A stretch of 39,933 nt of DNA, taken from assembly GCA_947460235.1 (NCBI GenBank), contig CANHGK010000021.1, positions 1 to 39,933 on the forward strand. The letters run 5' to 3'. This document shows, piece after piece, positions 11,734 to 34,293 of the stretch (positions are counted from its first letter, which is position 1; every line of letters starts with the position of its first letter). The notes under the pieces are model-generated. The model was not told the origin of the DNA, made no database searches, and was given only the letters and a program-made list of their open reading frames with translations. The DNA comes from Paenibacillaceae bacterium. Lineage in GTDB: Bacteria; Bacillota; Bacilli; Paenibacillales; CANHGK01. A program made the translations under genes and the position numbers.

Positions 11734-13011
11734 ATGTGGCGTAAGCCTGTTGCGGTGATTTTCCGAGTGTGGGTGTGTGCGTTTTTTGTTTCTTCGTTAT
11801 TTACATCGGTTTTCGATGGATTTGCAATGGCAGCAAAAACGTATCCTAAAATTAAAGCCGAAGTTCGAACAGATACAACAATGGAACGCAGTGGTCAGCA
11901 AATCCCATTACAAGATCCACCTTTATTGTATAAAGATAAGTTTTATATCTCGGTAAAGTCACTTGATTCAATTCTCAATACGTATACCGTTTGGAATAAA
12001 AAGAGAAATGTACTTGAGGTTATGGAAAGCACCCCACAACCGTTAAGTAACAATACTGGAGCAAGTGGTAGCAAACCGAAATCTACACCAAAACCTGATG
12101 CAAATTCTTCCGGTTCGAAACCCAATGCAAGTTCGAATGGTTCAAATCAAAGTGCAAATAACAATGTTATAAAATTAAAATCGACACCTACCCCGCGTGG
12201 TTTTAAAGCTTCTTCAACGCCTTTTGTCGTGAGAGTAACACCGACGCCGGTTGCGTTTTTGTTTTTGACCCCTACACCATTTAATAACGTTAGTAACGAG
12301 AATAGTAATTCATCTGGTACAAACGGTAACAGTAACGGTAATAATAACGGTGGCAGTAACGGTGGCAATAACGGTGGCAATGTGAAAGGAAATTCGAGTG
12401 GTGGAAATGGCCAAGTGATCGTTACACCTACACCTAAATTTCCAAAAATAAACAACACGCCGCGTCCGACACCGAAACGGAATGTCGCACCAGTGACGAT
12501 AGGCTCACCTGCACCGATTGCACCTACACGTTTGGTGAATTACTCCATAGAATATATGGGGAACAAATACGATGTTGTCGCTAATTTGTATAAGGATAGT
12601 TTGTATTTCCGTTATCGGGATTTATTGAAAATGGATGTTGATTGGTCAGGTGTTCCAATTTTTAAGGAACCGTTGACGAATGAAGATTTTATTATGAGGG
12701 AAGAATTAGTAAACCGCTTATTGGAGACACCGATGGTATTGTTGTTGAAAACACCTGTTTTAACTGGAATAGATGATCCAGATAAACGAAATTGCTTGAA
12801 TGCATTCATCGGGAATGGAAGTAAATTTGGAGTTGGACTGTCGGATTCGTCATCGCCGATTTTGTGGGTTTCTCCTACAAGTGTAGAAAATGAATATAAA
12901 GCGATTTCTCAAAACGGCGTTACTGGAAAAATCACCGAATATGGCGTGAAATTAATGAAATCAGACACTGGATATACTGCTTCAACCACCACGATTAAGT
13001 CATTAAATTAA
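11734..13011 (+). CDS. Secreted protein: N-terminal beta domain, long TPTP/NG linker, unknown C-terminal domain
   Basis: 425 residues; ATG with AAGGAGGG 8 bases upstream. Residues 1-34 form a signal peptide ending FAMAA. Residues 40-95 resemble a copper-amine-oxidase-N-like domain (DPPLLYKDKFYISVKSLDSI), a fold common in exported Bacilli proteins; this is inference. Residues 97-265 are low complexity: Ser/Asn/Gly runs, repeated TPTP, and three tandem NGG(S/N) units. Residues 267-425 form a globular domain (YSIEYMGNKYDVVANLYKD onward) that I do not recognise. It has one Cys outside the signal and no cell-wall sorting motif. It follows the moxR-DUF58-transglutaminase genes by 45 bases without a visible terminator, so it may be exported cargo or a partner of that system. 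Confidence 0.8.
   Translation: MWRKPVAVIFRVWVCAFFVSSLFTSVFDGFAMAAKTYPKIKAEVRTDTTMERSGQQIPLQDPPLLYKDKFYISVKSLDSILNTYTVWNKKRNVLEVMESTPQPLSNNTGASGSKPKSTPKPDANSSGSKPNASSNGSNQSANNNVIKLKSTPTPRGFKASSTPFVVRVTPTPVAFLFLTPTPFNNVSNENSNSSGTNGNSNGNNNGGSNGGNNGGNVKGNSSGGNGQVIVTPTPKFPKINNTPRPTPKRNVAPVTIGSPAPIAPTRLVNYSIEYMGNKYDVVANLYKDSLYFRYRDLLKMDVDWSGVPIFKEPLTNEDFIMREELVNRLLETPMVLLLKTPVLTGIDDPDKRNCLNAFIGNGSKFGVGLSDSSSPILWVSPTSVENEYKAISQNGVTGKITEYGVKLMKSDTGYTASTTTIKSLN
12346..12381 (+). repeat. Three tandem 12-bp repeats in linker coding sequence
   Basis: Units AACGGTGGCAGT, AACGGTGGCAAT and AACGGTGGCAAT are in frame and encode Asn-Gly-Gly-Ser/Asn. Degenerate AACGGTAAC-type copies precede them from about 12322. 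Such tracts can expand or shrink by slippage without shifting the frame. Confidence 0.85.
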
Positions 13012-13069
13012 TTCGAAAATCCGTCTAGTAGAAATGCAAAATTATCATTATATCCCAATCGTATTATCG

Positions 13070-13098
13070 TTGTCAAATGAACTAATTGTGTTTAAACT
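13070..13098 (+). promoter_or_regulatory. Candidate vegetative promoter for the 199-residue protein
   Basis: TTGTCA (13070-13075), a 17-base spacer and TAAACT (13093-13098). Transcription would start near 13105, about 25 bases before the GTG start. Confidence 0.6.
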
Positions 13099-13129
13099 AT
13101 AGGTATGGAGAGATATAGGGGGGATCACC

Positions 13130-13729
13130 GTGAAACCACAACGTTATGAAGTGGAATACTGCAACCTTGAACTGAGGTTTGAACGGAGGATTATCCACGA
13201 CTTCATGCGTCATCTTGCTCATGAGGGATTTTCGATGTATTGGAGTGAGGATGACCACCGCATTGAGTTGCAAGTGCGCGCCGAGCAGGGAGGCGTGAAG
13301 TTGCATTTTACGAGAATTGGTGATCGTTTCAAAATCGTTGGTGATTATTTACTAACCGATGATAAGTTATCCCGGATGATGGAAAAATTAATTGAAGACA
13401 CCCGAGGACATGCTGTCGTGAAACGATTCAATGATCAACAGATTTTAATTGAAAATATCATGTTTGGTGAAATCATTCGACTCGTTGAAATCCGAGGTGT
13501 TGAACACAAAGTGATCTTTCAGAAAAAACCGTTGGTTACTCGTGAAGAAATGGTGGAAGCCTTCAAAAACAAACGTGCGCTCGAACGTATCCCAGTCCTC
13601 AAAATGGAAATGGATTATGAGTTAATGGTATTGCATGATGCGATGAAAAATCACGATAAACGAGCAGTTCGCGCAAGTAAACAGAAATTGCGTCAATTGA
13701 GACAGGAGATGTTATGGTTAGAAGTATGA
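13130..13729 (+). CDS. Uncharacterised 199-residue protein
   Basis: GTG start with AGGGGGGAT a few bases upstream and its own promoter. Soluble, charged, with no signal or membrane segment. The N-terminal part alternates strands and helices (VEYCNLELRFERRIIHDFMR). The C-terminal third, from about residue 140, is strongly helical and basic (KRAVRASKQKLRQLRQEM) and may form a coiled coil. I have a weak impression of similarity to a roughly 200-residue uncharacterised family found in Paenibacillaceae, but cannot name a domain. Followed by a terminator-like hairpin, so it is probably monocistronic. Function unknown. Confidence 0.8.
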   Translation: MKPQRYEVEYCNLELRFERRIIHDFMRHLAHEGFSMYWSEDDHRIELQVRAEQGGVKLHFTRIGDRFKIVGDYLLTDDKLSRMMEKLIEDTRGHAVVKRFNDQQILIENIMFGEIIRLVEIRGVEHKVIFQKKPLVTREEMVEAFKNKRALERIPVLKMEMDYELMVLHDAMKNHDKRAVRASKQKLRQLRQEMLWLEV

Positions 13730-13755
13730 TTGTAAGCGCTTGCCTTTCCAACTCT

Positions 13756-13816
13756 AAACCCGCAAAAGCATTCTAACGGCAATTTTTATTCGCCAAATGA
13801 AGCTAATTGCGGGTTT
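13756..13816 (+). terminator. Terminator-like hairpin with a long loop
   Basis: AAACCCGCAA (13756-13765) pairs perfectly with TTGCGGGTTT (13807-13816), followed by TTTGTTTATT. The loop is 41 bases. A smaller hairpin GCAATT/AATTGC (13779-13784 with 13805-13810) competes for part of the distal arm. Confidence 0.6.
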
Positions 13817-13831
13817 TTGTTTATTAAAACC

Positions 13832-13859
13832 TTTACAAAATCCGAAAAAACATTATAAG
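13832..13859 (+). promoter_or_regulatory. Candidate promoter for the amidase gene
   Basis: TTTACA (13832-13837), a 16-base spacer and TATAAG (13854-13859), with a start near 13866. This lies inside the longest open reading frame and so argues for the downstream ATG at 13917 as the real start. Confidence 0.55.
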
Positions 13860-13916
13860 ATGACAATAGCGCACAACTTCCGACAACTTTTGCAGAGAGA
13901 GATGGTGACCCAAGAT

Positions 13917-15368
13917 ATGAAGCGCTACTTAATTAGTATGTTAATTATCATCATTTTTTTTACGATGGAGCTAAATGTAAGCGCTATCCAAATTTCCAAA
14001 TCTTCAAACCATTCTAAAACATCTACAATACATAGCGTCCAAGTCAATGGAAATCGTTTACTTGTTCAAGCGGATAATCAAATCAAACCAAGTATTATGC
14101 GGTTGAAACAACCAGAACGCTTGGTATTAACCTTTACTAATGCACAGTTAGAATTAAACGTGAATCATGCTGAGTTTTCATTAGATAATCATCCATTAAT
14201 TCGCAAAGTACGTTATGCCAATTTTTCGAATGAGCCACCGATGGTTCGAGTTGTTGCTGATTTAGAAGGAAATATTCCATTCGAATTAAAATCAGATCAA
14301 CCAGATTCAGTGATTGTTTCGTTGGATTCCATCAAATCTGCAGTTGATGTCGGAGAAGCAACAACGGATGATCCAATTGATTCGATTACTACAGCAGCTC
14401 CAACTGCAATCCCTTCGGCGACTCCAAACTTGACGCCGGAACCAATTTCTAAATTAGACGATCCCACACCAACACCAGAACAAAAAAGTGAAAACAAATT
14501 GATAGATGCTCAAATGAATGATTCCACACTTGAGTTATCATTCGATCAGGCGGTTTCTGTAACGAAAGATAATTCTACTATTGATACCGGATTAAATGTA
14601 ACGTATACGTTTAATACGACATTGTTTGATCATAAACAAATTACGATTCTCGAAAATGGATTGGTTCGATTGGTTCGCTGGAAAGGTGTAAAAAATGCAT
14701 CGTGGAAGATGACAGATACAGGTGGTTTTTTACAACTTTCATTGACATTGGATCCCGGTTACACTGCTTTTTTGACCGCGGATAAGGATCAAAAGACGAT
14801 TGGGATTCAAGCCAAAATTGTTCGTGCGAAAGTCGTTATTGATGCAGGTCATGGCGGATTTGATGTTGGTGCCACAAGTATAAGAAAACATTATGAGAAA
14901 GATCTAACGTTAAGTGTAGCTGAAATGGTTCGAGATGAATTATTAAAACATTCATCGATTGAACCAATCTTGACGCGTTCTGATGATCGTTTTATTACAT
15001 TGGAGAAGCGTGCTCAATTCGCAGCCCAAATGAATGCAGATTTATTTATTTCTATCCACGGAAATAGTAACATTAAAAGTTCCGTTCGTGGAACGGAAAC
15101 GTATTTTTTTAAAAAAGACAGCCAAGAACTTGCACAGGTCATGCACAAGCATGTTTTGAAAGCAACGCAATTACCAGATCGCAAAGTAAAAACCGCAAAA
15201 TATTTTGTGTTAAGGAATAATACAGTTCCGGCAACTTTATTGGAACTTGGCTACCTATCGAATGGCGTCGATGAAGCAAAATTGATGCGCGTAAGTATAA
15301 AAAGACAGATTGCAATCGAGATTGCTGCAGGGATTGAAGAATACGTAAACACAAAGCTTGCTCCTTAA
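13917..15368 (+). CDS. N-acetylmuramoyl-L-alanine amidase with AMIN-like domains
   Basis: 483 residues from the ATG at 13917. It is chosen because it begins a signal peptide (MKRYLISMLIIIIFFTMELN), lies downstream of a promoter and has GGTGA 8 bases upstream; extension to 13797 would start inside a terminator. After the signal comes an AMIN-like beta domain (about 35-130), a Thr/Pro linker with DPTPTP (about 147-190), a second AMIN-like region (about 200-300) and Amidase_3 (306-480). Zinc and catalytic residues are present: His312 (DAGHGG), Glu327 (HYEKDL), His381 (SIHGN) and Glu443 (LELGYLSN). It should cut the amide between muramic acid and the stem peptide. AMIN domains usually target the cell wall or envelope complexes. 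Confidence 0.93.
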   Translation: MKRYLISMLIIIIFFTMELNVSAIQISKSSNHSKTSTIHSVQVNGNRLLVQADNQIKPSIMRLKQPERLVLTFTNAQLELNVNHAEFSLDNHPLIRKVRYANFSNEPPMVRVVADLEGNIPFELKSDQPDSVIVSLDSIKSAVDVGEATTDDPIDSITTAAPTAIPSATPNLTPEPISKLDDPTPTPEQKSENKLIDAQMNDSTLELSFDQAVSVTKDNSTIDTGLNVTYTFNTTLFDHKQITILENGLVRLVRWKGVKNASWKMTDTGGFLQLSLTLDPGYTAFLTADKDQKTIGIQAKIVRAKVVIDAGHGGFDVGATSIRKHYEKDLTLSVAEMVRDELLKHSSIEPILTRSDDRFITLEKRAQFAAQMNADLFISIHGNSNIKSSVRGTETYFFKKDSQELAQVMHKHVLKATQLPDRKVKTAKYFVLRNNTVPATLLELGYLSNGVDEAKLMRVSIKRQIAIEIAAGIEEYVNTKLAP

Positions 15369-15384
15369 ATGGACAAGCTTTTTT
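15353..15384 (+). terminator. Rho-independent terminator after the amidase gene
   Basis: AAAGCTTG (15353-15360) pairs with CAAGCTTT (15374-15381), loop 13, followed by TTTTTT. The proximal arm and loop overlap the last codons and the stop of the amidase gene. Confidence 0.75.
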
Positions 15385-15398
15385 ACTTTGTTTATAAT
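15370..15398 (+). promoter_or_regulatory. Candidate promoter for the SLH-like gene
   Basis: TGGACA (15370-15375), a 17-base spacer and a consensus TATAAT (15393-15398). The -35 overlaps the loop and distal arm of the amidase terminator. Confidence 0.6.
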
Positions 15399-15447
15399 TT
15401 TACCCAAGCAACATAAAGAAAGTCATGAATGGTGAGGAGAAAAGATC

Positions 15448-17283
15448 ATGGGAATCATCAAATTACGTAAAATAATTGGTTTGTTCATTTTCTTGTTTAG
15501 TTTTTCGTGCATATCCATATTTTTTTCATCACAGGTTCAAGCTAGCCCACAAAATTCCAAGCTGATTCCAACCATGTTTAATGACTTGTCAGATCAGGAT
15601 CAAGCATATTCATCCGTATGGAAACTGTTAACTCAGGGTGTATTACGAAATGAATCAAATTTATCGTTTGATGCAGGTAAGGCGGTCACGAAGCAAGAGG
15701 CGATTATGCTTGCGATTCGATGGTCTGGTTTGGAAGACGAAGCGAAAAAACGGTCCTCTTCCGTTGTATTACCGTTTGAGGTTTCTCCTGCGACGAAACC
15801 ATACGTCATACTTGCATTTGAAAAAAATTTCATTACTTTTTCTGAAGAAATGCAACAACAAGATAGCAAGAAAACATTAAAAACATGGGGACAAACAGCA
15901 GTTACTTATGAATGGTTTGCGTTATTAATGGATCGAATTTGCGGGAAAAATTATACGAGTCCAACTAAGGTAGATGCATCAATAAGTAAATCCATTGTCG
16001 ACTTCGATTCCATTCGAACACTTAATAAAAATTCAGTGGCGAAATTCGTGCATTCAGGCGTAATTACGTTGGGTGATTCGAAAAAGTTTAATCCGACAAA
16101 ATTGCTCTCTCGTGCTCAATTAAGTATTTGGTTTGATCGATTGGAGTGGGTGGATAAACGATATTTGGCACAAGGTAATTTGGGCACATTTCAATCGCTT
16201 TCCAAGCAAACAATGACGGTAATGATGCCAGATCGCACGTCGAAAACGTTCACCGTCAGTCAATCTGTTAAGGCTTTCGGGAATGAAGCGACGAGTGGAT
16301 CGGTGTTGCTTTCTTCATTGAAACCAGGTGATGTACTGGAGTGGTCGCTAGTTAATCAGGAAGTATTGTTTTTGCGCAAAACAACCGATAAACGACTTGC
16401 TTTGGATCCATCCATTGTACCAATTGTGAATGCGACACCAATTCCTTCAGCAAAAATCAGTCCATCGCCTAGTCCAACGTTACTTCCGAAAGCGACCTCG
16501 AACATTGTTCGTTCGACGCCAATAACGACTGCAACGCCTATGGCAAGTGTAACCCCAGCACCAACGCAAGGATCAAACGCTACAGGTGCAAAAAATGGTA
16601 CGTTTGGATATAGCGGGATTATTACGCAGATTGACCTTTCCAAACGTGTCATCACAATTAATTCGGATACAAAATCTTCGGTGGTACAATTGTCCATTGC
16701 AACGAAGGTGACCGTACTTGATGGTCAAACGGTTCTTTCGGGCATGGAAGCATTACATGTAGGAGATTGGATATTTACGCAAGGTACAGATGCAAAAGTA
16801 ACATCGATTACATTATTGAAAGCGAATCGATTGCGTTCGGAACAAGGTTCAATTGAACAAATATATAAAGAACAATTGATTATCGTAAGGAATGGAACGT
16901 CCTTTACGGCATATCAAGTATCTAAAACAACAGAAATCACGTCATCAGGCAAAGCGTCACTTGGGGTATCTGAATTATTACCTGGTGACGAAATCAAAGT
17001 TGATGCAATTGATGATGCGCTTCAAAAAGTAACGTTATTGAAACGTACATTTATGATGTCATTACTCGTTATCCATTTTGATGCGCCTACGATGATTTTA
17101 ACGGTGATGGATTCAGAAAATCGCCCTTATGCGATTAAGGTTTCTAAGGACGCGTTATATTATGGGGATCAAGCGGTTTCGGTGTTGACTTCCGATCAAT
17201 TGGTACAAGCGTTAACCCGCGGTAAACAATTGGAAGTGTCGTTAAAAGATCAACTGATTGTTTCATTGAGGTTATCGAAATGA
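15448..17283 (+). CDS. Secreted SLH-like protein with TP linker and repeated beta domains
   Basis: 611 residues; ATG with GAGGAG upstream. The signal peptide ends SSQVQA (cleavage after about 32). Residues 43-95 (FNDLSDQDQAYSSVWKLLTQ onward) and 185-235 (KFVHSGVITLGDSKKFNP, then RAQLSIWFDRL) resemble two S-layer-homology repeats, which bind secondary wall polymer; the match is imperfect. Two or three repeated small beta domains follow, each with a V/T-rich strand pattern and a 'LxxGD' turn (LKPGDVLEW, LHVGDWIFT, LLPGDEIKV). A Pro/Thr/Ser linker (328-380, TPIPS, TPAPT) separates the first from the others. It shares this linker style with the two preceding secreted proteins. Exact function unknown; likely wall-anchored. 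The stop overlaps the nth start (ATGA). Confidence 0.82.
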   Translation: MGIIKLRKIIGLFIFLFSFSCISIFFSSQVQASPQNSKLIPTMFNDLSDQDQAYSSVWKLLTQGVLRNESNLSFDAGKAVTKQEAIMLAIRWSGLEDEAKKRSSSVVLPFEVSPATKPYVILAFEKNFITFSEEMQQQDSKKTLKTWGQTAVTYEWFALLMDRICGKNYTSPTKVDASISKSIVDFDSIRTLNKNSVAKFVHSGVITLGDSKKFNPTKLLSRAQLSIWFDRLEWVDKRYLAQGNLGTFQSLSKQTMTVMMPDRTSKTFTVSQSVKAFGNEATSGSVLLSSLKPGDVLEWSLVNQEVLFLRKTTDKRLALDPSIVPIVNATPIPSAKISPSPSPTLLPKATSNIVRSTPITTATPMASVTPAPTQGSNATGAKNGTFGYSGIITQIDLSKRVITINSDTKSSVVQLSIATKVTVLDGQTVLSGMEALHVGDWIFTQGTDAKVTSITLLKANRLRSEQGSIEQIYKEQLIIVRNGTSFTAYQVSKTTEITSSGKASLGVSELLPGDEIKVDAIDDALQKVTLLKRTFMMSLLVIHFDAPTMILTVMDSENRPYAIKVSKDALYYGDQAVSVLTSDQLVQALTRGKQLEVSLKDQLIVSLRLSK

Positions 17284-17957
17284 CGTTGAAAAAATCACAA
17301 ATAAATGAAATAATTGACGCCTTTCAAATCATGTTTCCGGACGCATTTTGTGAATTAAAGCATTCAAATCCGTTTGAGTTAGTGATCGCGGTATTGTTGT
17401 CTGCACAGTGCACTGATGTTATGGTAAACAAAGTGACGGCTACGTTATTTCAGAAATACAAGACGCCGGAAGATTATCTTGCAGTTGAGATTGAAACGCT
17501 TATGGAAGATATCAAACAAATTGGCCTCTTTCGAAATAAAGCGAAACATATTCAGCAATTATGTCATCAGTTATTGCAAAATTACGATGGCGTCGTACCC
17601 TCCACACGGGAAGAACTTGTAACATTAGCGGGTGTCGGCCGAAAGACAGCAAATGTTGTGATTTCTACAGCATTTGGTGTTCCGGCATTTGCCGTGGATA
17701 CTCATGTCGAGCGCGTTGCGAAAAGGCTCGGACTTGCGAAAATTGATGATGATGTCATGCGCGTGGAAACGAAGGTGATGAAGTTGTTTCCGGAATCCAT
17801 GTGGACGGCGTTGCATCATCAAATGATTTTTTTTGGACGATATCATTGCAAGGCCCAGAAACCTGGGTGCGATGTATGTCCGCTTCTGCATCTGTGTAAA
17901 GAAGGCAAGCAGCGGATGGGAATTCCGCTTCGAAAACGTAAAAATGTACAACCGTAA
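17280..17957 (+). CDS. nth: Endonuclease III (DNA glycosylase/AP lyase)
   Basis: 225 residues, usual size. The helix-hairpin-helix LAGVGRKTANVV carries the catalytic Lys122, and Asp140 lies in AVDTHVERVAKRLG; these correspond to Lys120 and Asp138 of E. coli Nth. The 4Fe-4S ligands are in CKAQKPGCDVCPLLHLC (C-x6-C-x2-C-x5-C). It removes oxidised pyrimidines in base-excision repair. Translationally coupled to the SLH-like gene by a 4-base overlap, an unusual partner; in B. subtilis nth sits beside dnaD. A terminator overlaps its stop codon. Confidence 0.96.
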   Translation: MTLKKSQINEIIDAFQIMFPDAFCELKHSNPFELVIAVLLSAQCTDVMVNKVTATLFQKYKTPEDYLAVEIETLMEDIKQIGLFRNKAKHIQQLCHQLLQNYDGVVPSTREELVTLAGVGRKTANVVISTAFGVPAFAVDTHVERVAKRLGLAKIDDDVMRVETKVMKLFPESMWTALHHQMIFFGRYHCKAQKPGCDVCPLLHLCKEGKQRMGIPLRKRKNVQP

Positions 17958-17987
17958 TTTAGCGAATATGCTGAATTGCGGTTTTTT
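17950..17987 (+). terminator. Rho-independent terminator after nth
   Basis: AACCGTAATTTAGC (17950-17963) pairs with GCTGAATTGCGGTT (17970-17983) using two G-U pairs, with a loop of 6, followed by a T-run (17982-17987). It overlaps the nth stop codon and lies just before the dynA ribosome site. Confidence 0.8.
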
Positions 17988-18006
17988 CGTAAAGGTGGTA
18001 GAGCGT

Positions 18007-21000
18007 GTGGATCGGGAAGCATGGTTACAAGAGGCTATAGAATTAAGACAACATGGTGATGAACTTGCAGCGCGACAACTCGAACGTCTTGTGCAACCGG
18101 GACGGGAAGAAGAAATGCACTTGTTATTTTGCGGACATTTTTCTGCGGGTAAGTCGACGGTGTTGAATCGGTTAACAGGTGTAGACAGGTTACCTTCTAG
18201 CCCGATCCCAACATCGGCGAATGCAGTCGCGCTGCATAATACTGACGGTCCTGGAATTGCACAAGCGCTGCGTTTGAACGGTGAATGGGAAATGCTTGAT
18301 TTTGCGGATCTGAACGCATCGTGTCGTGATGGTGCAACGTATTCAGAAGTCGTAATTGCAGACCCGCTTGTTACGTGGTCGCCGAGCATTGTGTTTTGGG
18401 ATACGCCAGGTATGGATTCGACAGACGCCGCTCATGAACGGATTACAAAGGAATATGCACCCCTCGCGGATGTTGTGATTTATATTTGTGACTATCAACA
18501 CGTTCTTGCGGAGACGAATCGTCAATTTTTGATTGAGATGTCAAGGCTCGGGAAACCACTTGTATTAATGATTAATCAAATGGATAAACATGACGATGCT
18601 GAATTGTCTCGGGAAACATTTCGCACACAAATCGAACACTCGTTAATCCTTTGGCGAGTTGAACCAAAGGCGATTTTTTATATTAGCGCTCGTCTCGAGA
18701 ATGTCCCGGGGAATGAATGGGATGCCATGGAAACATTTTTTAATGAACTTGCAAATTCCGAAGGTTCTAGAAACTGGTTAGCAGAATCGAGAAAAGCAAT
18801 TCATAACGGAATTATTCATGCGGCGATGGAGCGCAGTCTTGCATCCGCAGAAGCTACCCGCGAACAAAAGTGGTTGGATGCAGCTGAATTGTTTGATTAT
18901 CCAAATCGTGAAGGATTTGTGGAACATGTTGAATTGACGCTAAAGCGATTTGAACAGCGGAAATCCGGATTTGCGAAAGCGTTAGATTTAACGGAAGAAG
19001 GATTACGGAAACAGTGGAATCGTATTTTGCAAGATGCGAGAATATTGCCTGCACAAACAAGGGAATTGCTTGTTCAAGTCATGGAAAGTGGGCGAGCAGG
19101 ATTTCGCGTGGGGTTGTTTTCTTCGAAAGTTAAAATAACCAAAGAACGTGAACGACGCGGATTATTTTTCGCGAATGAATGGCGGAATCAATTACAGATC
19201 CATTTGCGTGGTCCTATCGCAGATTGGGCGATTCGATATGAGCAAGATATGGTCACCGTTTTACCTGGATGGCATGGTCGTGATTTGATCGACGCGCTGA
19301 TGTCTTCTGTAGAACAAGCACTTGATCGTTCGGATTGGGCATGGATTGATCCTTTGATGCCGAAAAGCCAATTGTTTACCGACGAGTTTTTTATGACGTG
19401 TTCAAATCAATTGCAAGAGACGTTGAGACAACGGATGCGTATCGTCATGACGGATTGGATGGAACTTTGTAGACCAACTTGGCGACTTGCGCTCAATCAA
19501 CTTGAAATGGAAAATATAACATTCGAAGAAGCGAGTCAGCAAATGCTTGGTTGGTGGGAAGCGATGAACATATGGGAGCAACATGTAGAAACTCAGCGTA
19601 TCCGATGGAATGCTTATTTTGTTCCGCTGAATGAGCAACATGAACTATCCATATGGACAATGCTTAACAAAGATATTTCTGAACAATTACATTTACTCCG
19701 ATATCAAGATGTATCCATTCACTCAAATGACACGAACAATGAGGAAGTGTTCCATTCGAAGTCGGCTCAACACTCGTTTTGGGGGTCGAATGAAGAAGCG
19801 AAACAAGCGAATTGGTGGAGCGAAGCAGAACAATGGAATGATCGATTCGCACAAATCGGTGATCGATTTACAAATGTTATTCAATCAACCGAACTCGTAC
19901 GAGGGAGACTGCGTGCACTTCGTAAAAGTGAATTGATTTTAGCGGTATTTGGTGCGTTTAGTTGCGGAAAGTCAACGATGATAAATGCATTATTAGGTGA
20001 TATGTTTTTGCCTGTATCACCGCATCCAACGACAGCAGCGATTATTTCGATTCGCAAACGGGAGGAAGGAATAGACGAAGATACGATTATTGTATCGTGG
20101 AAATCTAGAGCGGTTATGGAGGAGTCCATACGCGATAGTGCGCATCTGATTGGACTTCAGCGTGATTTATCGATTGAGAAAATATTCAAAGAAGCTGCGG
20201 AGATCCGTGCGGATTCTTTGCCTTCCGCGGCGGAAACACGCAGGGCCTATTTACTTGCGGTTCGGGAAGGCTGGAAGCAATGGTCACAGCATTTTGGAGA
20301 AGAACATAGATACCCGATCCACCAATTAAGACAATTTGCGGCGGAAGAGACGTGTTCGTGTTTTGTGCAGGCGATAGCTGTTCATCTCAAAACAGATTTC
20401 TCGGATGCAGGAATGGTCATTGTTGATACGCCAGGTGCCGATTCGGTATTTGCGAGACATACTGAACTAGCCTATGACATGTCTAAGCGTGCGGATGGAA
20501 TTTTCTATGTATGTTCCTATCAGCATGCGTTTACGAAATCGGATCGACGGTTTTTAATGCAACTCGCGCAAACGGTGAAAGTTGGCCAAGACTTGCGTGA
20601 GCGTACAATTCCAGTTTATTTTTTGCTGAACGCGGTTGATTTGGCTGAAAATCAAAAAGAGCTGGATTTGGTCATGGAGCATTTGCGTAAAGAACTCAAG
20701 TCGTGCGGTTTTGATCACCCAGATCTATTTGCCGTGTCTGCGCGAAATCAGTTGCGAAGTGGAGATGAACCAGGTTTTTTAAATTGGACCGAACATGTTC
20801 GTGAACATGTGCATCAACGCAGGCACGAAAAATTAGAACAATTTTTGTTTCACGATATGTTTAAGGCGCTGCATGGATTGGATGTATCATTGCAACGTCA
20901 ACGTTCCATGAATAGTGACCGTAATAAAACGCTAAAGAAATGGCAAATAATCGCGGATGAATGGCGCAGTGATTTGGAACAATTATCAGATGAGCGCCGA

Positions 21001-21720
21001 AAAGCAAACATCGTGCGGGAAGTCGAAGAGTTGCTATATTATATCCAGCAAAGATTACGTTTTTCACGCCGGGAATGGTTCCGTGAAGAAATGAATCCTT
21101 CTGTGTTCGCAATGAACAAGCAAACGAAAACTGTCTATTCGTTGGCGATTCGTGCGTTTAATGATCGGATAAACCGGGCATGGCATGATGAGTTAATCAT
21201 GACTCAAATTCGATTGGAACATCTTTTTTTTAAGGCAATTCAAGGCAAGGTCCATGAAGAACAACAAATTAGGCGTACTCGCGGTCCGTCAGGACCTGAA
21301 GCGGTGGATGTGCCTGACGAAAAAATGGTGCTAAGCAGGCTTGATGTTCCGCATTTTTCGGTTGCTCTTTCGGATGATTTTGGGTTGTCATCATTCAAAA
21401 ATGCCAAGTCTTTTTTTGAAGAAGGTGGCAGAACAAAGGTGCTCGAGCAAATGGAGGTACAATCGGATATCCTATGGGAAGCGGCGCTTCTGAAATTGAC
21501 CAGTTCATGGAGGGCGCAAGTGTCAAAACAATTTGACGATGGACTCATGAATATTGCTGCATTTTGGATGGATGAGTTATCGGAACAAACGCAATTTTTG
21601 GCACAGCCTGTTCAAGAAGAGTCAGATCTTTTTCAACGTGAGCGAGCGGCAAAAGCATTAAATGACGAATTATATCAATTAGCAATCCATTGCAATTTTC
21701 ATCCAGTACGATTAAGCTGA
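18007..21720 (+). CDS. dynA: DynA-type bacterial dynamin with two GTPase domains
   Basis: 1237 residues from GTG 18007 (AAAGGTGG upstream). A reading from 17833 would pass through nth and its terminator. Two dynamin-like halves are fused, as in B. subtilis DynA (about 1190 residues). Half 1 has P-loop GHFSAGKST (43-51), DTPGMDS (Asp132) and NQMD (190-193). Half 2 has P-loop GAFSCGKST (649-657), DTPGADS (Asp807) and NAVD (875-878). Long charged helical stretches follow each GTPase domain. DynA tethers and fuses membranes and helps protect against membrane damage and phage lysis in Bacillus. No transmembrane helix is seen; peripheral membrane association is expected. The SGNH hydrolase gene follows after 41 bases with no terminator. 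Confidence 0.93.
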   Translation: MDREAWLQEAIELRQHGDELAARQLERLVQPGREEEMHLLFCGHFSAGKSTVLNRLTGVDRLPSSPIPTSANAVALHNTDGPGIAQALRLNGEWEMLDFADLNASCRDGATYSEVVIADPLVTWSPSIVFWDTPGMDSTDAAHERITKEYAPLADVVIYICDYQHVLAETNRQFLIEMSRLGKPLVLMINQMDKHDDAELSRETFRTQIEHSLILWRVEPKAIFYISARLENVPGNEWDAMETFFNELANSEGSRNWLAESRKAIHNGIIHAAMERSLASAEATREQKWLDAAELFDYPNREGFVEHVELTLKRFEQRKSGFAKALDLTEEGLRKQWNRILQDARILPAQTRELLVQVMESGRAGFRVGLFSSKVKITKERERRGLFFANEWRNQLQIHLRGPIADWAIRYEQDMVTVLPGWHGRDLIDALMSSVEQALDRSDWAWIDPLMPKSQLFTDEFFMTCSNQLQETLRQRMRIVMTDWMELCRPTWRLALNQLEMENITFEEASQQMLGWWEAMNIWEQHVETQRIRWNAYFVPLNEQHELSIWTMLNKDISEQLHLLRYQDVSIHSNDTNNEEVFHSKSAQHSFWGSNEEAKQANWWSEAEQWNDRFAQIGDRFTNVIQSTELVRGRLRALRKSELILAVFGAFSCGKSTMINALLGDMFLPVSPHPTTAAIISIRKREEGIDEDTIIVSWKSRAVMEESIRDSAHLIGLQRDLSIEKIFKEAAEIRADSLPSAAETRRAYLLAVREGWKQWSQHFGEEHRYPIHQLRQFAAEETCSCFVQAIAVHLKTDFSDAGMVIVDTPGADSVFARHTELAYDMSKRADGIFYVCSYQHAFTKSDRRFLMQLAQTVKVGQDLRERTIPVYFLLNAVDLAENQKELDLVMEHLRKELKSCGFDHPDLFAVSARNQLRSGDEPGFLNWTEHVREHVHQRRHEKLEQFLFHDMFKALHGLDVSLQRQRSMNSDRNKTLKKWQIIADEWRSDLEQLSDERRKANIVREVEELLYYIQQRLRFSRREWFREEMNPSVFAMNKQTKTVYSLAIRAFNDRINRAWHDELIMTQIRLEHLFFKAIQGKVHEEQQIRRTRGPSGPEAVDVPDEKMVLSRLDVPHFSVALSDDFGLSSFKNAKSFFEEGGRTKVLEQMEVQSDILWEAALLKLTSSWRAQVSKQFDDGLMNIAAFWMDELSEQTQFLAQPVQEESDLFQRERAAKALNDELYQLAIHCNFHPVRLS

Positions 21721-29720: not shown

Positions 29721-30197
29721 TTGAACGACAATATTCCAGAAATAACGGTTACTACATTCGAGTCGTGTATCGTTATTCGTTACGCTTACGAACAATGGAC
29801 TTCTGCGATGGAACGCGATGGATTTATGCGTGCCGAGCAGCTATCCACAAGCAATCACCGAGGACTCGTTATTCCTTACGATTCTCGCACACTAACTGGT
29901 GTAGATGAAGAACGATGGTCATTGTTGAGATATGATTTTCGGATGCATCCTAGCCGATTAATCGATCGTTTGCCACTTCACATTCGCAAATCATCTGAAC
30001 TTCCGTTTGTGTACATCACACGTAGGCCTGAACCAGCATTTTTGGAAGATCCGATCGATGAAGAATTGATCGAAGCGATCGCGAAAAGTGGAAATTTTGA
30101 TTGGATCCTAGTACATCATAGAAAAGGAGGCGCTAACGTTCATGAGCACGCAATGGATCAGTCACTACATGACGGAACGGTATCCTTGGTTATGTGA
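29721..30197 (+). CDS. Uncharacterised 158-residue protein, first gene of the Tad-like locus
   Basis: TTG start with AGAGGAGGT 7 bases upstream, a good translation start. Soluble, no signal or membrane segment. Slightly acidic, with a possible beta-strand/loop ending FDWILVHHRKGG. Its last 18 codons overlap the start of the tadA-like gene by 56 bases, and its coding sequence contains that gene's ribosome site. This suggests translational coupling and perhaps a tail gained by loss of an earlier stop. I do not recognise the family. By position it could be an accessory or localisation factor for the ATPase, but no P-loop is seen, so it is not a standard TadZ. Confidence 0.75.
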   Translation: MNDNIPEITVTTFESCIVIRYAYEQWTSAMERDGFMRAEQLSTSNHRGLVIPYDSRTLTGVDEERWSLLRYDFRMHPSRLIDRLPLHIRKSSELPFVYITRRPEPAFLEDPIDEELIEAIAKSGNFDWILVHHRKGGANVHEHAMDQSLHDGTVSLVM

Positions 30198-31107
30198 AAT
30201 GTTAAAGGATCCTGATGTTAGTGACATTTGGATTAATGGTCCAACTTCAATTTATGCTGAACGAGCCGGTCAAATCGTAGCATGTTCTGAACCTGGAGTT
30301 ACTGTGCAAGCATTAAACGATTTAGCGTATACGCTCGCCGCAAATGCGAATCGTCCGATGAGTGTGCGCGACCCAGTGCTTGAGACAACGTGGACTGACC
30401 ATGCGCGCGTGCAAGCCGTGATCCCTCCACTTGCGAAAGATCACGCGGTGTTTGCATTTCGTAAACCTCGATTTTCAAATGTCACATTACATGATTTGGT
30501 TGCACAAGGAATGTGCAGCGAACCGTTGGCTGAATTTCTTCGACAATCCGTAAAAGAACGCCGAACGATCGTCGTCTGTGGATCTACGGGGTCAGGTAAA
30601 ACGACGGTTATGCAGGCATTACTTCGCGAGGTAAACGATGTAGAGCGTGTCATTGTCCTAGAAGATACAGCCGAACTTGAATTGCCAGAACATTTACAAG
30701 GGGTAAACCTACTTAGTAAACCTTCGCGAGATGATGAACCTGCAATTGAATTGGCAGATTTGGTGCGCGTAGCTTTACGAATGCGACCAGATCGGATTGT
30801 CATTGGTGAAGTTCGAGGGAGAGAAGCGTTCGGGATGGTACAGGCATTAAATACTGGACACGCTGGCGGGATAACGAGTCTGCATGCCAATTCATGTTTG
30901 GATGCGCTACTGAGACTTGAAACGTTACTTATGTTAACCGAAGGATTAACACCAAGTTTTTCACGTAAATTGTTGCAACGGGCGATGGACATATTCGTAT
31001 TTGTGGAACGTTTACCAACTGGTATTCGGAGGATCGCAGATGTTACCGTTCTTCCAAATGTTAAAGATTCAAGATATTCCCTTCAATCGTGGAACGAACC
31101 GAATTGA
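30142..31107 (+). CDS. tadA: CpaF/TadA-type secretion ATPase
   Basis: 321 residues; AAAGGAGG upstream of ATG. Secretion-ATPase motifs in order: N-terminal VSDIWINGPTSIYAERAGQI, Walker A GSTGSGKT (147-154, Lys153), Asp box VIVLEDTAELELP, Walker B RIVIGEVRGREAF and His box AGGITSLHAN. Shorter than many CpaF proteins (about 400-450 residues) because the long N-terminal part is missing. It should power assembly of a Tad/Flp-like pilus from the membrane's inner face. It is followed, with a 68-base overlap, by the platform protein gene. Confidence 0.93.
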   Translation: MSTQWISHYMTERYPWLCEMLKDPDVSDIWINGPTSIYAERAGQIVACSEPGVTVQALNDLAYTLAANANRPMSVRDPVLETTWTDHARVQAVIPPLAKDHAVFAFRKPRFSNVTLHDLVAQGMCSEPLAEFLRQSVKERRTIVVCGSTGSGKTTVMQALLREVNDVERVIVLEDTAELELPEHLQGVNLLSKPSRDDEPAIELADLVRVALRMRPDRIVIGEVRGREAFGMVQALNTGHAGGITSLHANSCLDALLRLETLLMLTEGLTPSFSRKLLQRAMDIFVFVERLPTGIRRIADVTVLPNVKDSRYSLQSWNEPN

Positions 31108-32308
31108 CCGTTATCCATGGCAAAGTTCATTTGTTCAATCTTCGTCGATAATAATTTGTTGTTCGATTGCACTAAGTCTTGCGGGTTGGTGGAGCTTCCG
31201 CTCTTATCAGGGTGCCTTGGCAGGGATGATGATGAGTTTCATCGCCGCGACCATGTATAGGAAGTATCGTCGGCTCCATCTGTTACAACGATGTAATGAA
31301 ACTGCTTTTCAATGGTTAAGTCAATGGTCTGACCGGTATTCAAACCGAGCGTGGAGTGATTTGCATACGATCCAACATATCTTTGAACATGAATCAACCG
31401 ATCGATGGATGAACTATACCATGGTGCGAATGAAACTACTTTTTAATAATGGTAAAGATTGGGACACGATATGGTCTGTATTTAAGGAACATTTTCCATT
31501 TCAAGACATCCATGACTGGATCGAAGCTTGGTTTCATGCAAGGACTCTTGGAACGTCAACACGAATTCAAGATATGACTTCCCAAATCGGATTTCGTATG
31601 ACTGCACAAGAAACGATACGTAGGTTACTATTAAAATCGACGGTTGAATTAATTGTATTGCTTTGTGTTCCTTATGTGTTTTTAATCTTGTATGAATCAA
31701 TCGTCCCTCAGTATGTACAACCTCTTTTTTACACTGCAACTGGTCATCTGTTAATGGCCACCACCTGGATTTTCAGCTTTCTAACGGTTGGTTTTTTAAC
31801 TCAGGGCCAATCCCACTATGAATTATTCCTACCAATTCAAGTCAAATTCCCTCAGCAAAAAAAATGGCAACGTTTCGTTCGTTTCTTCCGTTCAATTTCC
31901 CCAAAATTGTTCAAAAACGTTGCTTCTAATCCTAAAATAGATCGATTGGTATGGCGATCCTCCGAAATTACGACAAAACTCGCCAGCGGTATGCCTTGGA
32001 TGCAAATTTTCCCGCAACAAGGTGTTGTTCCATCACTCACTCCCCATGATGATTGGAGCAATGACCCGTGGTGTCAACTTATTTGGCATGACTGGCGGCA
32101 GTTTGTCCAAAGTGGCGATACAAAACTACTCGCGAACACGCACCGAAATATTCAATCCAAAATAAAACAGTTACTACATCAATCAGAACGGGAGGCGATG
32201 AAACGACAATTGCTCATGATGATCCCGGCCTTACTTTGGCTACTTTGGCTTTGTGTGCTACTCGCGTTCCCGTCCTGGTTACAAATCCAACAAACGTGGA
32301 GGTCATAA
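31040..32308 (+). CDS. Tad-like inner-membrane platform protein (TadB/TadC-like)
   Basis: 422 residues from ATG 31040, which has CGGAGGATC 4-8 bases upstream, inside the end of tadA. Hydrophobic segments: about 37-70 (two spans), 203-255 (two spans) and 390-410. The first half has the TadB pattern of paired N-terminal spans, a helical cytoplasmic T2SSF-like region, then paired spans. The second half is another cytoplasmic helical region closed by one C-terminal span (RQLLMMIPALLWLLWL), like the end of TadC. Sequence identity to known TadB/C is not obvious to me; the call rests on topology and position directly after the ATPase. Unusually Trp-rich. Confidence 0.7.
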   Translation: MLPFFQMLKIQDIPFNRGTNRIDRYPWQSSFVQSSSIIICCSIALSLAGWWSFRSYQGALAGMMMSFIAATMYRKYRRLHLLQRCNETAFQWLSQWSDRYSNRAWSDLHTIQHIFEHESTDRWMNYTMVRMKLLFNNGKDWDTIWSVFKEHFPFQDIHDWIEAWFHARTLGTSTRIQDMTSQIGFRMTAQETIRRLLLKSTVELIVLLCVPYVFLILYESIVPQYVQPLFYTATGHLLMATTWIFSFLTVGFLTQGQSHYELFLPIQVKFPQQKKWQRFVRFFRSISPKLFKNVASNPKIDRLVWRSSEITTKLASGMPWMQIFPQQGVVPSLTPHDDWSNDPWCQLIWHDWRQFVQSGDTKLLANTHRNIQSKIKQLLHQSEREAMKRQLLMMIPALLWLLWLCVLLAFPSWLQIQQTWRS

Positions 32309-32315
32309 CCTTAAA

Positions 32316-32522
32316 ATGAAAAAATATTTACAAAAAATGATAGCTCGTTTCCTTACTGAACAGAAGGGTGTAGGAACGTTAGAATTTTTAATGATATTGA
32401 CCGTTCTCATTTCGATCGCCGTAGTATTTCGTCAGTGGTTATTTTCGTGGATTGGTGATGTGTTAACGCATGTATCTCCGATGACATCTCCAAGTGTTTC
32501 TGTTCTACCAACGCCGAAATAA
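32316..32522 (+). CDS. Flp-like small prepilin
   Basis: 68 residues; ATG 12 bases after GTGGAGGT. Prepilin signature: a basic 18-residue leader ending EQKG, then VGTLEFLMILTVLISIAVVF. A glycine at -1, Glu at +5 (Glu23) and an aromatic at +6 are the pattern of Flp/class III prepilins. The mature protein would be about 50 residues: one hydrophobic helix plus a short Ser/Pro tail. It is likely the main pilus subunit. Absent from the longest-frame view because an in-frame upstream extension runs into the platform gene. Confidence 0.8.
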   Translation: MKKYLQKMIARFLTEQKGVGTLEFLMILTVLISIAVVFRQWLFSWIGDVLTHVSPMTSPSVSVLPTPK

Positions 32523-32532
32523 AGCAAGCAAT

Positions 32533-33090
32533 TTGTCCGGTCGGCAACGAGGCATGTGGTCACTTGAACTTGTACTTTTGCTACCGTTACTGACCGGCAT
32601 TTTGTTTTGGGTTGTTCAAGAAATACGGGTTGACCTTACGAAATGGGGCGGTGTATTTGAAGAAATGAAGCAATTTAGAGAAGTTTTCGTTTGTGATCCG
32701 ATCGGTAGTACTACACGATTCCAATATCCATCTCATGATGCGGTTCTTGATGAGATGCTTAAACGATGGCACGCCAAAACGATCGTGATGATGGTACCTG
32801 GTACTGACCGGCGTAGAGTGATTGATGCGTGGGATGGAAAAGTTGCACATCAAATTTATTTTGGAGAAAAAACGTACAATGCGGACGTTCGTGGTCAATT
32901 AGAAAAAGACAAAGTATTAATACAAAATCATATGGTCAGGCACGTGATTTGGCATTTTTTCGCAAGTATGAAAAGCGCTAGTTTTGGGCCAAATGATGAA
33001 CTTCGTAACGAACTGGTTCGCTCGGGGGTTGGGTGGATGATTTATCCACTACCAAATCAAGCAACACCAGGACCATGTATTTCGCCATGA
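32533..33090 (+). CDS. TadE-like pseudopilin
   Basis: 185 residues if started at TTG 32533; an alternative GTG at 32494 would overlap the pilin gene by 29 bases. Neither has a good ribosome site, so the start is uncertain. TTG is preferred because it gives a 7-residue leader, SGRQRG, similar to the short leaders of the next two proteins. Cleavage after G leaves MWSLELVLLLPLLTGILFWV, with Glu at +5. One membrane helix, then a roughly 150-residue extracytoplasmic domain with a single Cys near the front (VFVCDP) and another near the end. Minor pilin or TadE role inferred. The stop overlaps the next ATG (ATGA). Confidence 0.65.
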   Translation: MSGRQRGMWSLELVLLLPLLTGILFWVVQEIRVDLTKWGGVFEEMKQFREVFVCDPIGSTTRFQYPSHDAVLDEMLKRWHAKTIVMMVPGTDRRRVIDAWDGKVAHQIYFGEKTYNADVRGQLEKDKVLIQNHMVRHVIWHFFASMKSASFGPNDELRNELVRSGVGWMIYPLPNQATPGPCISP

Positions 33091-33755
33091 TCAAGGAACA
33101 AGGAAGTGTTAGCGTACTTTTTATGCTCATCATTAGCGCGTTGTTGGTTGTGCTCACCTCGCTAACGTTTTATGCACAACGTTCAGGTAAGTTTTTTGTA
33201 AGTCAAACGAACCGAAATTTATTACAAATTGATTCGATGCAGCACTGCGACAGTCGTCTTATTTCAGTAAACCTATGTGCATGGGAGTTAGACTCGAACG
33301 TACAATCATTGATCGTACAGTCGATGCCTTTATCACTTCCTGATGTTTTTTTGATGAGGGTGAAATCGACTATGAGTGAAGCGCAATCTATAAATCTTGA
33401 GAATATAATTCTGAAATTAGAACCACTAATACCAATGACGTTCACGTTTCCACAAATTATTTCAAATGCTCAATTGATTTGGTTCTTTTCTGAAACACCG
33501 ATTGGAGATGTATTCATTGATCCTATTGCTTCGGGGATAATAGATGCACTAAATGTTCAAAATTATCATTTGAATTTAGCAAAATTTTCAGCGATTACAA
33601 GTGTTAGCACGGACGACTGCAAAAGATTTAGTATAGCGGCAACATTTTCAGAACACCCCTTGCAACTTATTGAAATCATACAAAAGAAAGTAGAATCATT
33701 TTGTGCGTGCGACTTGCGTACGATGATGTCAGAAACTAGGGTGAGTGCGGATTGA
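33087..33755 (+). CDS. TadG-like membrane protein with short prepilin-type leader
   Basis: 222 residues from ATG 33087, coupled by ATGA to the previous stop; in-frame ATGs at 33075 and 33033 are alternatives. Begins MIKEQGSVSVLFMLIISALL. The GSVxVLF motif is the usual TadG-type beginning, and it lacks Glu at +5. One membrane helix (about 8-30) is followed by a roughly 190-residue external domain with several Cys (HCDSR, NLCAW, DDCKR, FCACD). Domain otherwise unrecognised. The stop overlaps the next TTG start. Confidence 0.65.
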   Translation: MIKEQGSVSVLFMLIISALLVVLTSLTFYAQRSGKFFVSQTNRNLLQIDSMQHCDSRLISVNLCAWELDSNVQSLIVQSMPLSLPDVFLMRVKSTMSEAQSINLENIILKLEPLIPMTFTFPQIISNAQLIWFFSETPIGDVFIDPIASGIIDALNVQNYHLNLAKFSAITSVSTDDCKRFSIAATFSEHPLQLIEIIQKKVESFCACDLRTMMSETRVSAD

Positions 33756-34138
33756 ACAACGAAAAAGGTAGTGTAATTCTAGAAACGGCGATTTGGATCT
33801 TTCCGATGTTGCTGTTGATCGTTGTCATTTCATTATTGATCCAAAGTTGGGGAGTCATTTGGGAAATTCGTATGCACCATCCATACGCAAATCAATTGAA
33901 TCTTTTTACAACACAACAAATTTTAGAATTGACTGAAGATATTAAACAAAAAATTTTTGCGCAATTTAACGTCGGCAAAGCACAAGTGCAAACGATTGTT
34001 GAAATACACTCGGAAAACATGACAATTACTCAGTTTTGTACGATGCGTATTAGCTGGAAAATCGACATTTTTCGAGCGCTTTATCCTCTCCAAGAGTCAT
34101 GGAATATGCCTGTCGTTTGCGCAAATGGACACAAATAA
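33752..34138 (+). CDS. Second TadE-like pseudopilin
   Basis: 128 residues; TTG start overlapping the previous stop (TTGA), with AGGGTGAG upstream. A 6-residue leader MNNEKG precedes SVILETAIWIFPMLLLIVVI, with Glu at +5 and an amphipathic hydrophobic helix, the standard TadE beginning (compare the Pfam TadE motif). The external part is about 95 residues, with two Cys (FCTMR, VVCANG). Last gene of the Tad-like locus. No terminator is obvious before the nrd promoter region. Confidence 0.72.
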   Translation: MNNEKGSVILETAIWIFPMLLLIVVISLLIQSWGVIWEIRMHHPYANQLNLFTTQQILELTEDIKQKIFAQFNVGKAQVQTIVEIHSENMTITQFCTMRISWKIDIFRALYPLQESWNMPVVCANGHK

Positions 34139-34198: not shown

Positions 34199-34293
34199 GG
34201 CAAACATTCAGGTGCCTCAATCGGTATCTGGATTTTTAATCTCCGTATCGCTCTAGGACATTGTCGCACAACATATACCAGGGAGGATGCAAG

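Follow-up and report, generated by a model that had tools for sequence, protein, structure and literature searches.

Micrococcus luteus makes Flp pili that are required for transformation (PMC4322843), and TadC is missing from some actinobacterial Tad systems (PMC6668835). Among Bacilli, we compared 46 Tad regions, which are a sample of the class and not a census: 18 regions around platform matches in genomes of the same order as our bacterium, 20 from further Bacilli and 8 picked for an apparent lack of TadV. Sixteen of the 18 same-order regions share one operon layout, TadZ-TadA-TadB-TadC-Flp-TadE-like-TadG-like-TadF-like-TadV, with small variations. TadZ is present in 14 of these 16 operons, and a Ser/Thr-kinase-like gene often lies upstream. 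L040 and L044 represent another Tad type. All 18 regions contain TadV and two platform genes.

We analyzed a stretch of 39,933 nucleotides from a Paenibacillaceae bacterium, referred to here as the window. Reading its ORFs reveals seven open, overlapping frames on the plus strand at 29721-34138, as a first-pass annotation had reported. Their products are a TadA/CpaF ATPase, a platform protein, a prepilin of Flp1-like type, three pilin-like proteins with leaders and a protein designated gene 1. The coding score is higher in the native frame than in two shifted frames for each of the seven. The features are as follows.

29721..30197, plus strand: gene 1, 158 aa, probable TadZ remnant (position and weak TadZ match)
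30142..31107, plus strand: tadA/cpaF, 321 aa, NTD2 and ATPase domain only (T2SSE, TIGR03819)
31040..32308, plus strand: platform protein, 422 aa from ATG 31040 (435 aa from TTG 31001), TadB-like part and extension
32316..32522, plus strand: Flp1-like prepilin, 68 aa, MKKYLQKMIARFLTEQKG^VGTLEFLMI... (Pfam PF16982)
32494..33090, plus strand: gene 5, TadE-like pseudopilin, up to 198 aa, leader ...RQRG^MWSLELVLLLP
33033..33755, plus strand: gene 6, TadG-like minor pilin, up to 240 aa, KEQG^SVSVLFMLI
33752..34138, plus strand: gene 7, TadF/TadE-like minor pilin, 128 aa, leader NEKG^SVILETAIWIFPML
34206..34243, plus strand: possible intrinsic terminator 3' of the operon, weak (consensus scan; 11-pair stem, T tail)

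Judging from the overlaps, a single transcript for the seven ORFs is plausible. Promoter and terminator scans of the locus region gave signals no stronger than chance, and the count of terminators in the region was no higher than in shuffles. Gene names read from translations place parE/parC-like genes and a thioredoxin-like gene on one side of the locus and nrdA/nrdB-like genes on the other. Elsewhere in the window, a very large ORF at 17833-21720 (1295 aa) contains two GTPase-type P-loop halves and resembles a bacterial dynamin in tandem form; because the listed start overlaps an upstream endonuclease III-like gene, the actual start probably lies further downstream. Three adjacent secreted-looking proteins with Thr-Pro-rich linkers (TPTP runs) are encoded at 11734-17283.

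The gene order in the window is that of the same-order loci, with smaller parts. Together with the homology of TadA, the TadB-like part of the platform protein, Flp and gene 5, this order upheld the proposal of a reduced Gram-positive Tad/Flp locus. The combined compression of the locus is what is unusual. We favor, as the likely account, descent of the locus from its order's Tad/Flp operon by compression, leaving a minimal assembly machine whose prepilins would be matured by PilD.

The pilin genes tie the locus to the Flp family. The small prepilin matches Pfam PF16982 (Flp1_like) above the cut-off (E 9.1e-12) and the same-order Flp profile with E 2.7e-19. It probably begins at ATG 32316, which has GGAGG upstream and is better than the listed start. 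Its class III leader, EQKG^VGTLE, fits the G^xxxxE pattern of small Flp prepilins, and position +6 carries Phe in place of Tyr, a substitution also present in Gram-positive Flp-like pilins (PMC3244431). The three proteins that follow resemble TadE/F/G-like minor pilins, gene 5 through its C-terminal domain and genes 6 and 7 through leader and TM segment only. Gene 5 has a class III leader (RQRG^MWSLE) and shares homology over its C-terminal 74 aa with the gene 5 proteins of same-order loci (hhalign 98.3%, E 2e-14), which are mostly open frames of 226-415 aa. Gene 6 matches its family in the leader and TM segment (E 7.7e-6), with the remainder unmatched; its leader, KEQG^SVSVL, has no Glu at +5, as is also the case in its relatives, which are TadG-like proteins of 563-789 aa. 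Gene 7 has a class III leader (NEKG^SVILE) and matches its family, with open frames of 181-390 aa, in the leader and TM segment only (E 7e-5).

The ATPase is recognizably TadA but lacks its N-terminal portion. It matches Pfam T2SSE (E 1.2e-39), NCBIfam TIGR03819 (E 2.3e-67; 227.6 bits, under the curated cut-off of 373 bits) and the same-order TadA profile (E 1.6e-69). The alignment to the last of these begins at column 70 of 408; the domains designated NTD0 and NTD1 in CpaF (PMC11300603) are therefore absent. The initial description of a "short" TadA/CpaF ATPase was correct as far as it went, but it overlooked this loss of the N-terminal domain. The open frame of 331 aa is the shortest among the matches listed, compared with a minimum of 377 aa in the 46 regions when L034 and L036 are set aside. 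Those two regions, from genomes of one genus (G066 and G022), have TadA as a fragment of 135-143 aa (L034:5357-5761, L036:5530-5958) with TadB to TadV present and no TadZ match; both genomes have a full-length TadA match on another contig. In C. crescentus, deleting NTD0 and NTD1 of CpaF abolished pilus function, a result that carries an expression caveat and for which the authors urge caution, and hinge mutations beside NTD1 likewise abolished function (PMC11300603). The machine in the window either functions without NTD1 or builds no classical dynamic pilus.

TadA retains the Walker A motif GSTGSGKTT, the Walker B region RPDRIVIGEVRG, the Asp box LEDTAEL and the His box GHAGGITSLHAN. It is nevertheless very divergent, differing at 31 of 88 near-invariant columns, which, like the C. 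crescentus deletion, counts against our preferred explanation. A contig search with TadA returned an Azohydromonas locus (34% identity) as the sole match, and the window's TadA and TadB proteins could not be placed in trees because of their long branch. The long TadA branch and the altered columns would be expected if the locus were a decaying remnant, its faster divergence and gene shrinkage marking a loss of function. The codon scores of most locus genes, which fall below those of the window's reference genes, and the absence of TadV and of the greater part of TadZ point the same way. Random loss should leave stops and frameshifts, however, whereas all seven ORFs are open and tightly overlapping, carry in-frame coding signal and preserve the ATPase motifs and leaders. 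We consider decay quite unlikely.

Gene 1 had been called unknown, and it indeed matches no family in Pfam or NCBIfam. This label missed its position: gene 1 lies directly upstream of TadA, the place of TadZ in same-order relatives. It starts at TTG 29721 with GGAGG upstream. When gene 1 was compared with TadZ from 16 same-order loci (hhalign), residues 63-148 gave a weak match (E 0.001, probability 20%) that none of 150 shuffles equaled. Gene 1 is a probable TadZ remnant from which the receiver and P-loop parts would be gone.

The platform protein probably begins at ATG 31040, where GGAGG upstream favors this start over the listed TTG 31001. It has no match in Pfam. Residues 35-258 of the 435-aa form match TadB of same-order genomes (hhalign probability 97.7%, E 1.3e-12), and the sequence beyond about residue 258 forms a C-terminal extension of about 170 aa that ends in a TM helix. 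The best match of this extension is the TadC C-terminus, which is not significant, with 6 of 150 shuffles scoring as high (hhalign). The extension found no match in 81 genomes or in a class-wide search of 399 genomes; apart from the window's own, none of the open frames matched in the class-wide platform search exceeded 358 aa. Single-sequence structure predictions (pLDDT 43 for the platform protein and 39 for gene 1) were too poor for fold searches. A search of the genome for a further non-T4P platform gene returned none, and each of the 46 other Bacilli loci has a pair of separate platform genes, both of which match best as TadB in the case of L096 and L118. The platform protein is a probable TadB-TadC fusion. 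The earlier view that the locus has one platform protein held for the gene count, but it overlooked the TadB identity and the extension in TadC's place. Tad/Flp systems typically pair TadB with TadC, and the locus instead has one chain of 422-435 aa; we keep it in the Tad family as a variant because published variants have TadB and TadC fused or TadC missing.

A seven-gene layout with an ATPase, a platform protein and several small prepilins is also what a competence comG operon would present. The ATPase scores 227.6 bits against TIGR03819 versus 73 bits against the ComGA model (cut-off 300), the pilin is Flp1-like and the platform protein matches TadB. These family scores rule out a comG identity, to which we assign almost no likelihood.

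The first-pass annotation had named a complete tad operon elsewhere as evidence that would count against its reading, and none was found. The T2SSE search identified four ATPases in the genome (two PilB, one PilT and one TadA) and no second TadA; the three others sit in T4P loci. One of these loci, L030:6836-12018 (G000:C5, about 37800-43000), is a second PilB-PilC cluster followed by apparent PilM/N/O genes. It has no obvious prepilin or peptidase and is distinct from the PilB-PilT-PilC-PilD cluster on C3.

TadV, full-length TadZ and a separate TadC are all absent from the locus and its immediate neighbors, as originally stated. The accompanying phrase "no maturation peptidase" applies to the locus but not to the genome (2.72 Mb, 99.2% complete), which encodes one intact A24 peptidase. 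This enzyme (C3:147963-148568, 286-aa open frame) is PilD-type with PF06750, retains the motifs CPHC/CRYC (CxxC), TDLRTMLIPD and GMGLGD (GxGD), and lies in a T4P cluster with PilB, PilT, PilC and pilins. An A24/PF01478 search found no TadV anywhere in the genome, although a TadV too divergent for PF01478 could escape such a search, here as in the other Bacilli genomes. Where Tad/Flp systems are expected to have TadV, the only A24 enzyme here is PilD-type. In the published Tad model, tadV may lie apart from the locus, and the final version rejects pilD as a substitute (PMC6668835); exchange of prepilin peptidases between systems has also been reported (PMC6668835). Flp is handled in P. aeruginosa by the short peptidase FppA, according to a citation in PMC12075869. 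The use of FppA by P. aeruginosa and of a TadV-type enzyme by M. luteus counts against acceptance of Flp by a PilD, which is putative here.

The missing peptidase had been given too much weight, since the genome encodes an A24 enzyme and several other Bacilli Tad loci also lack TadV. In a class-wide A24 search, at least 10 other TadA-positive Bacilli genomes had just one A24 match, PilD/ComC-like in size, with open frames of 251-262 aa (G086, G109, G112, G140, G158, G218, G258, G334, G342 and G431). We opened the Tad loci in eight of these ten (all but G158 and G258) and found TadV in none (L109-L111, L113-L120). Across the 20 further Bacilli regions, TadV lies within 16 and just outside 2 more (G132, G089); G129 encodes a TadV-size A24 enzyme elsewhere in its genome, and in G109 the sole enzyme is a PilD that belongs to a T4P cluster. 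We infer that PilD serves TadV-less Tad loci in Bacilli, where peptidase sharing may be common.

The gene content suggests how such a machine could work. Flp and the three pilin-like minor subunits would enter the membrane via Sec, and their class III leaders would be cleaved by the PilD-type enzyme from the T4P cluster, the sole prepilin peptidase of the genome. A TadA hexamer composed of NTD2 and the ATPase domain would power the single TadBC-like platform protein, which would raise mature Flp into a thin filament primed and tipped by the TadE/F/G-like proteins. We infer that the locus builds a real Flp filament. Adhesion is the most likely role of the predicted pilus, and DNA uptake is possible. 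A pseudopilus for secretion or DNA uptake, in place of an adhesive surface pilus, would agree with the ComEC encoded in the genome and with the use of the M. luteus Flp system in transformation (PMC4322843). No separate comG ATPase is seen among the four T2SSE enzymes (two PilB, one PilT and TadA), which would also agree with this reading. However, the T4P with its retraction ATPase is a simpler candidate for DNA uptake, and reading the ORFs of the window revealed no competence gene. We regard a pseudopilus as unlikely.

The favored reading, a compressed Tad/Flp operon, leads to a more specific proposal that we put forward tentatively, with some doubt: a Tad machine with an NTD1-less motor, a one-chain TadBC, at most a vestigial TadZ and PilD-dependent prepilins, in which Tad and T4P share one peptidase. 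The locus hints at how few parts a Tad machine might get by with, namely NTD2 and the ATPase domain, a single platform chain, one pilin and three minor pilins. It offers a natural setting in which to ask if NTD1, TadZ and separate TadB and TadC can be dispensed with. With the TadV-less Tad loci of Bacilli genomes that have a lone PilD/ComC-size peptidase, the idea that Tad and other type IV filaments share a peptidase can be put to a direct test.

The window shares its gene order, Flp1-like pilin, gene 5 C-terminal domain and TadE/F/G-like leaders with the same-order Tad/Flp operons (e.g. L031-L033, L035, L038, L039, L041, L043, L045, L047, L048). Unlike the window, these operons have a full TadZ (368-436 aa), a TadA of 392-460 aa, separate TadB and TadC, a TadG-like protein of 563-779 aa (all sizes are of open frames) and TadV inside the locus. 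The TadV-less Bacilli loci (e.g. L113-L120) resemble the window in that only an A24 of PilD/ComC size was detected in the genome, but they have a TadA of 450-466 aa, TadZ and two separate platform genes. Micrococcus luteus differs in being an Actinobacterium that carries another tad cluster and, elsewhere, a peptidase of TadV type, and the role of its tad-2 in transformation is demonstrated (PMC4322843). As is probable for the window, tad-2 encodes TadB and TadC in one ORF; like the window it has no tadV in the locus, and M. luteus is without TadZ and has a Flp prepilin of 77 aa (PMC4322843). Every reduction in the window thus has a precedent except, so far as we found, the loss of NTD1.
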